Under the pieces are notes generated by a model, which saw nothing but the letters and a program-made list of their open reading frames with translations, was not told the DNA's origin and did not search any database. A stretch of DNA of 64,000 nucleotides from Rhodovulum sp. PH10. GTDB lineage: Bacteria > Pseudomonadota > Alphaproteobacteria > Rhizobiales > Xanthobacteraceae. The position numbers were made by a program, and so were the translations under genes. The stretch's first letter is position 1. Each line of letters opens with the position of its first letter. The stretch is from contig NZ_AKZI01000012.1 in the NCBI RefSeq assembly GCF_000293785.1, positions 1 through 64,000 of the forward strand. Reading direction: 5' to 3'. Positions 14,864-28,164 of the stretch are shown here, piece after piece.

Positions 14864-15763
14864 TCACACCGCCTCGAGCCGCCGCAACACCTCGTCGAGC
14901 TGGTCGAGATCCGCGTAGCGGATGTGCATGGTGCCCGCCTCGCCCTCGTGATCGATGGTGACGCGCAGGCCGAGCGTGTCGGACAGCCGCTTCTCGAGCG
15001 CGCGGGTATTGGCGTCCTTCGGCTTCGGCGGCGCCTTCGGCTTCGGCCCGGGCCGCGGGCCGTCGCCGTCCTTGCGCACCAAATCCTCGACCTGCCGCAC
15101 ATTGAGGCCGCGGGCGACGATCTCGTTCGCGAGCTTTTCGGCATCCGGCTCGCCGACCAGCATGCGGGCGTGCCCTGCGGTGAGCTTTCCGGCGCTCAGA
15201 AGCGTCTTCACGCCCTCGGGCAGCTTCAGCAGGCGCAGCGTGTTGGCGACGTGACTGCGGCTCTTGCCGACCGTCTTGGCGACGTCCTCCTGCGCGTAGG
15301 AGAAGCTGTCGAGCAGCGCCTGATAGCCCATCGCCTCCTCGAGCGGGTCGAGGTCGGCGCGCTGCACGTTCTCGATGATCGCGAGCTCGAGCGCCTGGCT
15401 GTCGGTGACGTCGAGCACCACCACCGGCACGTCGTGCAGCCCGGCGCGCTGCGAGGCGCGCCAGCGCCGCTCGCCGGCGATGATCTCGTAAGACTCGCTC
15501 GCGCCCTTGACCGGCCGCACGGCGATCGGCTGGATCAGCCCGCGCGCGGCGATCGAGGCGGCGAGCTCGTCGAGCTCGGCCTCGGCAAACGTGCGGCGCG
15601 GGTTGCGCGGATTGGGGCGCAGAAACTCGATCGGCACCTTTCGCGTGCCGCGCACGCGCTCGGCGGACGCCGCCGACCCCGACCCCGCGGCTCCCGGATC
15701 GACGTCGCCGATCAGCGCGGCAAGGCCGCGCCCGAGGCGCGAGCGCGGGGCGTCTTCGGCCAT
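14864..15763 (-). CDS. parB: Chromosome-partitioning protein ParB
   Basis: A 299-residue chromosomal ParB. The N-terminus has the ParA-interacting LGRGLAALIG; the CTPase/ParB-N domain includes NPRNPRR and the GERRWRA motif near 100-107; the helix-turn-helix (about 155-185, with VGKSRSHVANTLRLL) reads parS; and the C-terminal dimerisation domain is at about 245-299. It binds parS, spreads as a CTP-dependent clamp and is moved by ParA. GGAGAT lies before the ATG at 15763. A Pro/Lys-rich linker (KPKAPPKPK) separates the last two domains. Confidence 0.97.
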   Translation of the reverse strand: MAEDAPRSRLGRGLAALIGDVDPGAAGSGSAASAERVRGTRKVPIEFLRPNPRNPRRTFAEAELDELAASIAARGLIQPIAVRPVKGASESYEIIAGERRWRASQRAGLHDVPVVVLDVTDSQALELAIIENVQRADLDPLEEAMGYQALLDSFSYAQEDVAKTVGKSRSHVANTLRLLKLPEGVKTLLSAGKLTAGHARMLVGEPDAEKLANEIVARGLNVRQVEDLVRKDGDGPRPGPKPKAPPKPKDANTRALEKRLSDTLGLRVTIDHEGEAGTMHIRYADLDQLDEVLRRLEAV

Positions 15764-15936
15764 GGCACGATCTCCAGACGGTCTCTTCATCACCACGACG
15801 AGCTTCTCATACCAAGTATAAAGACGAGCCGGCGCGATGCCGCCAGCTTTATATACAAACTACGGCCCATGCTGTCCGGCCCCGCACCCGACCGCGCGCG
15901 GCGGGACGCCCCGCTCGCGGCGCGCGGCAGGAAACG

Positions 15937-16794
15937 CTAGCCGGCGAGCCGCTCGGTCAGCTCCTTCTCGCGCTGGATCACCTCGGTGGCGAGCCGGAGA
16001 TAGGCCTCGCTGCCGGCGCATTTGAGGTCGTAGACCAGCACCGGCTTGCCGTAGGACGGCGCCTCCGAGACGCGGACATTGCGCGGGATGACCGTGTTGT
16101 AGACCTTTCCGCCCATATAGTCGCGCACGTCGGCGACCACCTGGGCCGACAAATTGTTGCGCGCATCGTACATGGTCAGCACCACCCCGTGGATGGTGAG
16201 GTCCGGATTGAGGGTCGACTTCACCTGCTCGACGGTCTCGAGAAGCTGGGTCAGCCCCTCGAGCGCGAAGAACTCGCACTGCAGCGGCACCACGATCGCG
16301 TTCGCCGCCGCCATCGCGTTGACGGTGAGGAGATTGAGCGAGGGCGGACAGTCGACCAGGACATAAGTGAACCCGTTCGGCCCGCTCGCCAGGTCGCGCA
16401 CGGCGTTGCGCAGGCGAAACGCCCGGTCGCGCGTCTGGCCGATCTCGAGCTCCACGCCCGCGAGGTCGAGGGTCGAGGGCGCGAGCCACAGATGCGGCAC
16501 CGAGGTCGGCACCACCACGTCAGCGAGCGGCGCGTCGCCGATCAGCACGTCGTAGGTCGAGGCGCTGCGGTTCCGCCGATCGATGCCGAGGCCGGTCGAG
16601 GCATTGCCCTGCGGGTCGAGGTCGAGCACCAGCACCCGCTCGCCGCTGGCGGCGAGCGCGGTGCCGAGATTGATGGCGGTGGTGGTCTTGCCGACGCCGC
16701 CCTTCTGGTTGGCGACCGCGAGCACGCGGGGACGGCGGCCGGCGGCCGGCGCCTCGCCGGGGAACGGCACCACATCCGTGGACATGTCCGACAT
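15937..16794 (-). CDS. parA: Chromosome-partitioning ATPase ParA
   Basis: A 285-residue ParA/Soj ATPase. The deviant Walker A motif is KGGVGKTT (31-38), with the signature lysine; the Walker B region is VLVDCPPSLN near 140 and LDLDPQGN follows the first strand. Together with ParB and the two parS sites nearby it segregates the origin region. It is followed 173 bases later by parB and preceded 92 bases earlier by rsmG, the conserved rsmG-parA-parB order. Start chosen at the first of two close ATG codons; the second is three codons in. Confidence 0.97.
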   Translation of the reverse strand: MSDMSTDVVPFPGEAPAAGRRPRVLAVANQKGGVGKTTTAINLGTALAASGERVLVLDLDPQGNASTGLGIDRRNRSASTYDVLIGDAPLADVVVPTSVPHLWLAPSTLDLAGVELEIGQTRDRAFRLRNAVRDLASGPNGFTYVLVDCPPSLNLLTVNAMAAANAIVVPLQCEFFALEGLTQLLETVEQVKSTLNPDLTIHGVVLTMYDARNNLSAQVVADVRDYMGGKVYNTVIPRNVRVSEAPSYGKPVLVYDLKCAGSEAYLRLATEVIQREKELTERLAG

Positions 16795-16886
16795 CTCGGT
16801 CGCTTCCGGTTGATCGCGCTTCCGGTGGTCCTCCGCGGTCCGCGGCGAGGCACGCCGGCCGGAGGCGGGCGTGTGCGGGCGGCGGG

Positions 16887-17573
16887 TCAGCGGCGCGGGG
16901 CCACGTGCCGGACGACGACGATCCGGCCCTCCGGATCGGTCCTGCTCGGCACGAGGTCGGCGGTGATTGTCCAGGATTTGCGCGCCTCGGTCAATTCGGC
17001 AGCGACGTCGCGGCCTTTCGGCAGCAGCGCAAATCCCCCGCTTTTCAGGAGCGGATGGACGTGAGCGAGCAGCGCCGGCAGGGGCGCGAGCGCGCGGGCG
17101 GTGACCACGTCCGGCCGCACGTTTTTTCGCGCGACGAAGGATTCGATTCGCTCGGGGTGAACGACAACAGGCAACGCGAGGGTTTCGGCGGCCTCCGCCA
17201 GAAACGCCGCCTTCTTGCCGATACTCTCGACCAGATGGACCCTCGCGCCCGGCACCTCGGCGAGCGCGCAGGCGAGCACCAGCCCCGGAAAGCCGCCGCC
17301 ACTGCCGAGATCGACGATGATGCGGGCGTTCGGGGCGAGGTCGAGAAGCTGGAGCGAATCGGCGACGTGGCGGGTCCACAGGGTCGGGATGCTGCCGGGC
17401 GAGATCAGATTGGTGACGGCCTGGCGGGCGAGCAGCAGCGCGACCAGACGATCGAGCCGGGCCTCTGTTTCACGTGAAACAGGGGTCAGCGCCAGCGCGG
17501 CAGCGCGGTCGGCCGGATCGATCGCCGGCAGAACCCGCGGCGGCCGGCGGTGCGGCTCGGCGTGCCCGCTCAT
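16887..17573 (-). CDS. rsmG: 16S rRNA (guanine-527-N7)-methyltransferase RsmG
   Basis: A 228-residue SAM-dependent methyltransferase (GidB) that makes m7G527 in 16S rRNA. The SAM-binding motif I is [11 protein letters not shown] near residues 87-97 and [13 protein letters not shown] follows. Its start overlaps the mnmG stop by four bases. A perfect parS site lies inside the gene, where it encodes PVSRET near residues 31-36, so this piece of protein sequence is partly dictated by the segregation site. Confidence 0.96.
17466..17481. other. parS: parS centromere site, inside rsmG
   Basis: Exact match to the universal parS 16-mer TGTTTCACGTGAAACA; the palindrome extends one more base on each side (C...G). 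ParB binding site about 1.7 kb from parB. Confidence 0.97.
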
Positions 17574-19462: not shown

Positions 19463-19478
19463 TGTTTCACGTGAAACA
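19463..19478. other. parS: parS centromere site, mnmE-mnmG intergenic
   Basis: Second exact TGTTTCACGTGAAACA, in the 66-base gap between mnmE and mnmG, immediately upstream of mnmG. Being 25 bases from the mnmG start it may also affect mnmG expression when ParB is bound. Confidence 0.97.
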
Positions 19479-25290: not shown

Positions 25291-25848
25291 TCAGAAGGGC
25301 TTCACCACCACCAGTACCACGATGGCGACCACGCAGGCGACCCCGAGCCCGTCGAGAACGCGATAGGTTCGCTCCCGTCCGCGGGCGCGTTCCGGCCCGC
25401 CGGGGCGCGCGAGACGACGCGTTTCGGCCGACACGACACCGTGCACGCCCGACAGCAGGAAGACCAGCGCGAGCTTGGCGTGGAACCAGCCGCTCGAAAG
25501 CCAGCCCCCTTGCCAGGCGAGCCAGCCGCCGAGCCCCCAGGTCAGCACCATTGCCGGATTGACCAGCCGCCGCACCAGCCGGTGCTCGATCCCGGAGAGC
25601 AGATCGGCCGACGGGCCGGAGCCCGCCGCCACGTGCATCGCGAACAAAGGCGGCACCGCCAGCATGCCGGCGATCCAGCCGCCGACCGCCAGGAGATGCG
25701 CCGCCTTCATCCAGAAATAGGCCTCGACCGGCACCACCAGCACGAAGCCGACCGCCGCGGCGACCGGCGCCAACAGCCCGATCGCCGCACGAACCACCCG
25801 CCGGCCCGGCGAGGCGAGCTCGCCCCGAGGCGGACCGGCGTCTGCCAT
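25291..25848 (-). CDS. hemJ: Protoporphyrinogen IX oxidase, HemJ type
   Basis: A 185-residue membrane protein of the HemJ (UPF0093) family, the protoporphyrinogen oxidase of many Alphaproteobacteria. The signature region is [18 protein letters not shown] near residue 46-63, with the heme-binding His, and a later block [18 protein letters not shown] near 121-138. About five hydrophobic segments. The start overlaps the hemE stop by one base (TGATG), so it is translated with hemE. The first 25 residues are a longer polar leader than usual. Confidence 0.9.
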
Positions 25849-26939
25849 CACGCCCCGCGCACGCGCTTCAGCATCCGCTCGACATTCGCGATCGGTGCGT
25901 CGGGCGTGATGCCGTGGCCGAGATTGAACACGAACGGCCGCCCCGAGAACGCCTCGAGGATCGCGTCGACGCCGCGATCGAGCGCCTCGCCGCCGGCGAT
26001 CAGCAGAAGCGGGTCGAGATTGCCCTGCACCACCACCTTGCTCTGGATGCGCTCGCGGGCGAACTTCAGATCCATCGTCCAGTCGAGGCCGACCGCATCG
26101 ACCGGAACCTCGCCGACGAACCGCTCGAGCTGGGTGCCGGCGCCGCGCGGGAACGCGATGATCTTTGCACCGGGCACCTGCGATCGCACGCCGTCGACGA
26201 TCTTTTTCGCCGGTGCGATCACCCAGCGGTCGAACTCGAGCGGCGGCAGGATGCCGCCCCAGGTGTCGAACAGCTGCACGGCATCGACCCCGGCGCGGAA
26301 CTGCGCGACCAGATAGGTGATCGAGGCCTCGACCAGCGCGTCCATCAGCTTCTGGAACGTCGCCGGATCGCGATAGGCGAGCGTGCGCGCCGGCGCCTGG
26401 TCGGGCGTGCCCTCCCCCGCCACCATGTAGGTCGCGACCGTCCAGGGGGCACCGCAGAAGCCGAGAAAGGTCACCTCCGGCGGCAGCCCGGCCTTGATCA
26501 ACCCGACCGCCTCGATCACCGCGTCGAGCTTGCCGAGGTCGAAGGTTCCGAACCGATCGACATTCTCCGCGTTCACCACCGGCGCGAGCCGCGGACCCTC
26601 GCCGGCGGCGAAGCTCACCGTCTGGCCGAGCGCGTGGGGAACCACCAGGATGTCGGAGAACAGGATGGCCGCATCGAAGCCGAACCGCCGGATCGGCTGG
26701 AACGTCACCTCCGCCGCGAGCTTCGGCGAGAAGCACAGGTCGAGAAAGCTGCCCGCCTGTTCGCGGGTCGCCCGGTACTCGGGCAGATAGCGGCCCGCCT
26801 GGCGCATCATCCAGACCGGCGGCACGGTCGCGGTCTTGCCCGACAGGACGTCGAGCATCGGCTTGCCGGTCGTCCCGCCGGAGGCGGGCGAGGAGCCGGG
26901 AACCGAAGCGTCGGGAATCGTGGAACGGGTGTCTGACAT
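25848..26939 (-). CDS. hemE: Uroporphyrinogen decarboxylase HemE
   Basis: A 363-residue enzyme that decarboxylates uroporphyrinogen III to coproporphyrinogen III in heme synthesis. The family's N-terminal motif [16 protein letters not shown] is at about residues 37-52 and the second signature [13 protein letters not shown] near 150. The N-terminal 30 residues (Pro/Ser/Gly-rich) are longer than usual. The first ATG is at 26939; a TTG four codons further up is possible. It borders the probable replication origin, the position hemE holds in Caulobacter and relatives. Confidence 0.96.
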
Positions 26940-26955
26940 CGTCTTCTTCAATCTA

Positions 26956-26970
26956 TTAAGAGATTTTTAA
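26956..26970. promoter_or_regulatory. CtrA binding site in oriC
   Basis: TTAA-GAGATTT-TTAA is an exact match to the CtrA consensus TTAA-N7-TTAA. It begins 17 bases upstream of the hemE start codon, within the AT-rich patch, so it may serve both origin silencing and hemE control. Confidence 0.8.
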
Positions 26971-26975
26971 GTGTT

Positions 26976-27009
26976 GAGTCTGTTGGAGGCGGGAAAAGAC
27001 TCACGACTC
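26976..27009. other. Cluster of three GANTC (CcrM) methylation sites
   Basis: GAGTC at 26976, GACTC at 26998 and GACTC at 27005. Three GANTC sites in 34 bases is well above the roughly one per 256 expected by chance, and they adjoin the CtrA site. Confidence 0.8.
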
Positions 27010-27321
27010 CCCCGTCCACAGGTCGCGCAGCGTCGTCCACATCGTGGTCCACCGTTCGTTCATCGGCCGTGCCGGCGGGGCGTGTCGAAAAACCCCGTGC
27101 CGCAGCGGCCGCGTGGGCCTGTCGCTCATGGCCTGATACCATTGCCGTTGTTCACAATGAAGGAGTATAAATCCGCCCCTGGCTGTCCCCTCCTGTGAAC
27201 ATGTGGTTCGTTCGGGAGGGGGTGCACCGCCCGGTCGGCTGCGAGGCGGCGCGCGCGCGGGTTCTCCCCAGCGGTCCACACTCGTCCCCCGTCCCTGTTC
27301 ACCGTCGCCCCCGCGGACCCC

Positions 27322-28164
27322 ATGAGCAAGCCGACCGCCTTCTTTCACCTGCACCTGATCTCGGATTCGACCGGCGAGACGCTGATCACCGTCGCCCGGG
27401 CGGCGACCGCGCAATACATCCAGGTGTCGGCGGTCGAGCACGTCTACCCCGCCGTGCGCACCGGCAAGCAGCTCGACCACGTGCTCGCCGAGATCGAGCA
27501 GGAGCCGGGCGTGGTGCTCTACACGCTGCTCGACGAGGCCCTGATCACCCGGCTCGAGGCGACCTGCCTCGATCTCGGCCTGCCGTGCCTGTCGATCCTC
27601 GGCCCGGTGCTGCGGCTGTTCGAATCGCATCTCGGCACCGAATCGACCCCGAAGGTCGGCGCCCAGCACGTGCTCAATGCCGAGTATTTCAAGCGGATCG
27701 ACGCCTTGAACTACACGATGATGCACGACGACGGGCAGATGACCGACGACCTCGAGCGGGCCGACGTGGTGCTGGTCGGGGTGTCGCGCACCTCCAAGAC
27801 GCCGACCTCGATCTATCTCGCCAACCGTGGCATCAAGACCGCCAATGTGCCGCTGGTTCCCGGCGTGCCGCTGCCGCCCGAGCTTCCCACGCTGAAGAAC
27901 CCGCTGGTGGTCGGGCTGTTCGCGACGCCCGAGCGGATCGTCGCGATCCGCCAGAACCGGCTCTTGGGGCTGAAGGCCCACAACGAGGACGACCAGTACA
28001 TCGACCGCGACGCGGTCACCGAGGAGATTCAATTGTCGCGCCGCATGTGCGCCAAGAACGGCTGGCCGTCGATCGACGTCACCCGCCGCTCGATCGAGGA
28101 GACCGCGGCCGCGGTGATGGCGCTGCTCGCCGAGCGCCGTCGCCAGCCGCTGGACCACGAATGA
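27322..28164 (+). CDS. ppsR: PPDK regulatory kinase/pyrophosphorylase (DUF299)
   Basis: A 280-residue member of the DUF299 family, the bifunctional serine/threonine kinase-phosphotransferase that regulates pyruvate,phosphate dikinase or PEP synthetase. The N-terminus has [12 protein letters not shown]; the P-loop [15 protein letters not shown] lies at about 152-166. In Alphaproteobacteria this gene (RP001-like) flanks the origin. The ATG starts at 27322; the stop overlaps the maf start by four bases. Confidence 0.93.

Follow-up and report, generated by a model that had tools for sequence, protein, structure and literature searches.

How far the direct control of replication by CtrA reaches beyond Caulobacter is an open point, and two well-studied members of the Hyphomicrobiales do without it. 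The origin of Caulobacter crescentus, Cori, lies between divergently arranged hemE and COG1806 genes and combines an AT-rich block and DnaA-type boxes with five CtrA boxes and GANTC sites (PMC1914354, PMC3973325); a passage of PMC3973325 cites the GANTC sites of this origin as previously known. Within the Hyphomicrobiales, the same gene neighbourhood recurs in Sinorhizobium meliloti and Brucella (PMC2443382). The S. meliloti origin has no CtrA motif and is not bound by CtrA (PMC4433202), and a passage of PMC2877005 reports no CtrA binding at the origin of Brucella abortus. For Azorhizobium caulinodans ORS571, Lee et al. predicted the origin at the hemE-ppsR junction from skew (PMC2443382). Finally, in the budding alphaproteobacterium Hyphomonas neptunium, which belongs to another order, ChIP-seq revealed a CtrA site by the origin (PMC7200025).

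The locus described here, the 382-bp intergenic gap between hemE and ppsR (26940..27321) in a stretch of 64,000 nucleotides that we call the window, is very probably a further example of this known origin type. It shares with Cori the flanking genes and their divergent layout, the AT-rich block, the DnaA-type boxes, a CtrA box and the GANTC sites; unlike Cori, it carries one CtrA box instead of five, and no IHF site with up to one mismatch was found in the gap. Azorhizobium belongs to the same family and has the same gap with GANTC sites and DnaA cores, but its two perfect CtrA boxes occupy other positions, and one of them, TTAATCAACCGTTAA, recurs in a few relatives. The predicted CtrA box sets the gap apart from the origins of S. 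meliloti and Brucella, members of the same order, and recalls that of Hyphomonas, although the Hyphomonas site was demonstrated experimentally and the one discussed here is a prediction. The preliminary description of the window had referred to 'other Hyphomicrobiales' after naming Caulobacter, a wording that does not hold since Caulobacter belongs to the Caulobacterales.

Both genes bordering the gap are confirmed by Pfam. On the minus strand, hemE (uroporphyrinogen decarboxylase, 25848..26939; PF01208, E 6e-116) has its ATG ending at 26939, and on the plus strand ppsR (COG1806/DUF299, 27322..28164; Kinase-PPPase, PF03618, E 3e-89) starts with an ATG at 27322; the space between them is free of genes, as had been claimed. 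The surrounding order, rsmG-mnmG...rho...hemE-gap-ppsR...coaE, already leads one to expect the origin at this location. Partition genes are found 10-12 kb from the gap, both on the minus strand: parB (14864..15796) with ParB_N, HTH_ParB and ParB_C domains, and parA within an open reading frame (15937..17379) whose AAA_31 domain covers residues 218-396 and whose true start lies further in. Two sequence matches to a perfect 16-bp parS, TGTTTCACGTGAAACA, lie 7.5-9.5 kb from the gap, at 17466..17481 in the rsmG/mnmG region and, just upstream of mnmG, at 19463..19478.

Because the genome of the window is a 4.83-Mb draft in 272 contigs, strand asymmetry was examined in relatives, using a gene-corrected third-position skew with origin and terminus scanned freely. 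The complete genome of Azorhizobium caulinodans ORS571 (G017; one contig with 5,369,772 bp, 40 samples of 20 kb, 446 genes) has its best-fitting origin at 5.36 Mb/0, where the hemE-ppsR junction lies (t 6.8). The FtsK-type GGGNAGGG motifs also change orientation at this junction (61/28 versus 45/86, P 7e-7). In Rhodoplanes serenus DSM 18633 (G003), which is among the genomes closest to the window and belongs to the same genus, the best switch falls at 109 kb and the gap at 117 kb, only 8 kb apart (t 5.4 versus 4.9). On the window's own 88-kb contig (45 genes) a gene-corrected switch at the gap is not favoured (t -0.6), the weak best position being 81 kb, and the five FtsK motifs on this contig are too few for use; a second Rhodoplanes contig (G004), with nearly all of its 140 genes on one side of the gap, shows no third-position skew switch at the gap. 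The skew of a further genome (G001) was too noisy for use, and in another (G010), where hemE is apart from ppsR, no skew switch was found there. The assignment is nevertheless well supported by the gene order, by parAB and parS, by the enriched DnaA cores described below and by the skew switches that relatives show at or near their corresponding gap. We therefore regard the hemE-ppsR gap as almost certainly a Rhodoplanes chromosome origin. Division in Rhodoplanes occurs by budding.

Adjacent to hemE, a block with 73% AT (26945..26984) is a candidate DNA unwinding element; the 40-mer starting at 26945 is the AT maximum of the whole window, which bears out the earlier remark on an AT-rich patch, and the corresponding place is AT-rich in 74 alphaproteobacterial origins. 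DnaA-box-like 9-mers lie on the plus strand at 27012..27020, with a TCCACA core at its end that is conserved in the genus alignment, at 27033..27041 (TCGTCCACA, two mismatches to TTATCCACA) and, according to the same alignment, in a conserved TCCCCAGCGGTCCACA block adjoining ppsR at 27272..27280. Their TCCACA cores at 27015, 27036 and 27275 account for 3 of the 17 cores in the window, where 0.10 would be expected in the gap (P 1.6e-4). The several DnaA-box-like 9-mers proposed initially are thus backed by an enriched core but are weaker than claimed: every 9-mer of the gap departs from TTATCCACA by at least two mismatches, and the best have two. Across 74 hemE-ppsR gaps, DnaA cores reach 5.5/kb compared to 0.4/kb in the flanking genes. 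The IHF scan of the gap returned only two-mismatch matches to WATCAANNNNTTR, a degenerate motif that is not known to be required outside Caulobacter. Rfam and simple sigma-70 promoter and terminator scans of the gap found nothing. In the middle of the gap, the genus alignment reveals a 41-bp block conserved in all five Rhodoplanes (TGATACCATTGCCG..TTCACAATGAAGGAGTATAAATCC, 27134..27174) that contains TTCACA and TATAAA-like stretches; it is possibly the ppsR promoter or a set of weak DnaA sites.

Inside the AT-rich block lies the predicted CtrA site, a perfect TTAA-N7-TTAA (TTAAGAGATTTTTAA, 26956..26970), present exactly where it had been described. It is the only copy in the window, and no further CtrA site was detected in the gap even with one mismatch allowed. 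Genome-wide, the pattern occurs 22 times in 4.83 Mb, compared to 8 occurrences of a reversed control pattern, so that about 0.002 copies would be expected in 382 bp at the genome rate. The scanned neighbours of the other copies form a mixed set (a chemoreceptor, a penicillin-binding protein and a polysaccharide-export protein among them), and no clear classical CtrA regulon emerged from these flanks. The promoter of this genome's ctrA (L245:3200-3900) has no perfect TTAA-N7-TTAA; its TTAA half-sites are 10 bp apart. The search of the genome suggested in the preliminary description recovered ctrA, ccrM and dnaA, and gcrA is also encoded. CcrM matches PDB 6pbd (E 8e-155), and CtrA is 82% identical overall to the sequence taken as Caulobacter CtrA, with a nearly unchanged DNA-binding domain. 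Among the five Rhodoplanes with the gap, the box is perfect in two (this genome and G004), and the other three, R. serenus among them, have TGAA as first half-site; in all four genomes other than this one a GATTC falls within the spacer, which superimposes a CcrM site on the CtrA box, an arrangement absent here. Since the box is partly kept and the GANTC sites described below are kept in all five, the latter are the more constant element in this lineage.

The best overall explanation, which we hold with moderate confidence, is a DnaA-dependent Rhodoplanes origin with CtrA acting on its single box. From the TCCACA-type boxes towards ppsR, bound DnaA would unwind the AT-rich block adjacent to hemE. 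By analogy with Caulobacter, phosphorylated CtrA would occupy the box within this block in non-replicating cells and hinder either the opening itself or the transcription needed for it, and clearance of CtrA would then release the origin. The GANTC sites around the block are constant components of the origin and presumably receive their methylation from the CcrM of this genome. We consider it somewhat more likely than not that CtrA is bound at 26956-26970 in vivo. That it directly limits initiation here, a step taken from Caulobacter, is a more tentative proposition, which we judge somewhat short of even. The cell-cycle gating put forward earlier is accordingly plausible in its CtrA part, given the identity of the regulator and the spacing control presented next, but it has to reckon with a single site, perfect in two of five Rhodoplanes, and with the lack of CtrA binding at the S. 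meliloti and Brucella origins.

The strongest alternative is an origin without CtrA gating, in which the perfect box is due to chance or is decaying and any effect of CtrA is indirect, as has been proposed for S. meliloti, where depletion of CtrA leads to over-replication although the origin is unbound (PMC4433202). The TGAA half-site in three of the five Rhodoplanes speaks for such a reading. So does a comparison of origin gaps from Alphaproteobacteria (84 in total, 74 of them in a first round): the gaps sampled from Rhizobium, Shinella, Mesorhizobium, Ochrobactrum and Sphingomonadales yielded no perfect site, in agreement with the experiments in S. meliloti and Brucella. The same comparison also provides the main argument against chance. 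TTAA-N7-TTAA was found 15 times, in 13 of the 84 gaps, whereas each other spacing from 2 to 13 gave 0-1 sites, and sites with one mismatch likewise peak at N7 (44 versus 7-27 at the other spacings). With kinship ignored, a binomial at 1/12 per spacing yields about 1e-13 when every site is counted and 1e-9 when each distinct sequence is counted once. The 15 sites comprise 11 distinct sequences at several positions and therefore do not descend from one inherited copy. The first 74 gaps contained 13 such sites and their 305 kb of flanks none, and the loci with a site belong to the Hyphomicrobiales wherever an assignment was possible. By the spacing control, the predicted CtrA boxes at origins are thus genuine in some members of this order, and it follows that S. 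meliloti and Brucella do not represent the order as a whole. We consider an ungated origin a sizeable possibility, yet one that falls behind direct CtrA action.

Individual boxes can be narrowly distributed. The sequence TTAATCAACCGTTAA occurs in just 4 of 298 Hyphomicrobiales genomes searched and is therefore clade-specific. At five loci (L028, L030, L036, L143, L247) this perfect box overlaps a ATCAACCG element, and other family members retain the element without the CtrA half-sites, a pattern that looks as if CtrA boxes had been gained or lost on a conserved element.

The GANTC sites of the gap, reported in the preliminary description as three within 26976-27009, are indeed located at 26976..26980, 26998..27002 and 27005..27009, the last two 7 bp apart, and all three are conserved in the five Rhodoplanes, the middle one also in many family members. 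They form the tightest triplet of the window and the only one that close (simulation P 0.0006 for the gap, about 0.12 for anywhere in the window). The first site is the conserved AGACTC of a GAGTC-22-GACTC pair: together with the site at 26998 it makes up an inverted repeat (TGAGTC, GACTCA) spaced by 22 bp, or about two helical turns, in all Rhodoplanes, which might serve as the target of a dimeric protein. On a broader scale, the AT-rich block of 74 origin gaps, taken at 100-150 bp upstream from one fixed codon of hemE, has a GANTC density of 29.7/kb, where base composition would give 3.3/kb and the flanks have 1.9/kb; seven further palindromes built on the same pattern range from 1 to 12/kb. 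As GANTC in the Caulobacter origin was known before, its wider occurrence at the origins of many Alphaproteobacteria would extend this knowledge and is no discovery of a new kind.

Another way to read these elements is that the CtrA box and the GANTC sites constitute the hemE promoter and control heme synthesis, not replication. The position of the box invites this reading, since at 17-31 bp upstream of the hemE start it occupies a promoter-like place and, only 17 bp from the start, may serve hemE. Genomes in which the genes have moved provide a control. In 24 genomes where hemE is not beside ppsR, the hemE upstream region has 1.2/kb of GANTC and 1.3/kb of DnaA cores versus 9.3/kb and 5.6/kb, respectively; conversely, in five family members (L246, L248-L251) hemE has moved away and hemJ is the direct neighbour of ppsR, yet AT-richness, GANTC at 9.3/kb and DnaA cores at 4.0/kb persist in the gap. 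The cluster of GANTC sites and DnaA cores tracks the origin and not hemE. The control is weaker for the CtrA box, as none of the five hemJ-ppsR gaps has one. Moreover, a passage of PMC4287350 notes that transcription at the origin matters in Caulobacter, which makes it possible that the box regulates both hemE and the origin. We regard control of hemE in place of replication as unlikely.

The methylation state of the GANTC sites could also time unwinding of the AT-rich block, similar to Dam and SeqA at E. coli oriC. The density of GANTC in this block and the presence of CcrM would suit such a timer, but relatives that lose the methyltransferase argue against it: Caulobacter without CcrM controls initiation normally (PMC3973325), and ori1 of Agrobacterium does not change significantly when CcrM is depleted (PMC11514494). 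An E. coli-like 13-mer made of GANTC and a T-rich tail is only weakly enriched. The cluster that had been proposed as a gate is thus real and deeply conserved, but these data make an essential CcrM gate less likely, and we consider timing by methylation improbable. That the whole cluster is a plain hemE promoter is rejected on the relocated-hemE control.

Returning to the reading of a DnaA-dependent origin with a single CtrA box, a wider evolutionary picture can be sketched, though as a conjecture that we would not expect to hold: in the Hyphomicrobiales, direct control of the origin by CtrA may be evolutionarily mobile, with boxes arising at differing positions in separate lineages including Rhodoplanes, and the conserved GANTC cluster of the unwinding region may be the constant cell-cycle input, perhaps via duplex opening or recruitment of GcrA. 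The spacing-controlled count points to species in which direct CtrA control can be tested, namely Rhodoplanes, the Azorhizobium group, Methylobacterium and others. Similarly, the concentration of GANTC in the AT-rich block of most sampled alphaproteobacterial origins, which is without an agreed function, is open to experiment. What the comparison adds to the view of these origins is that, as far as can be predicted, their CtrA boxes are real but patchy in the Hyphomicrobiales, and that the element which stays constant is the GANTC cluster of the unwinding region.
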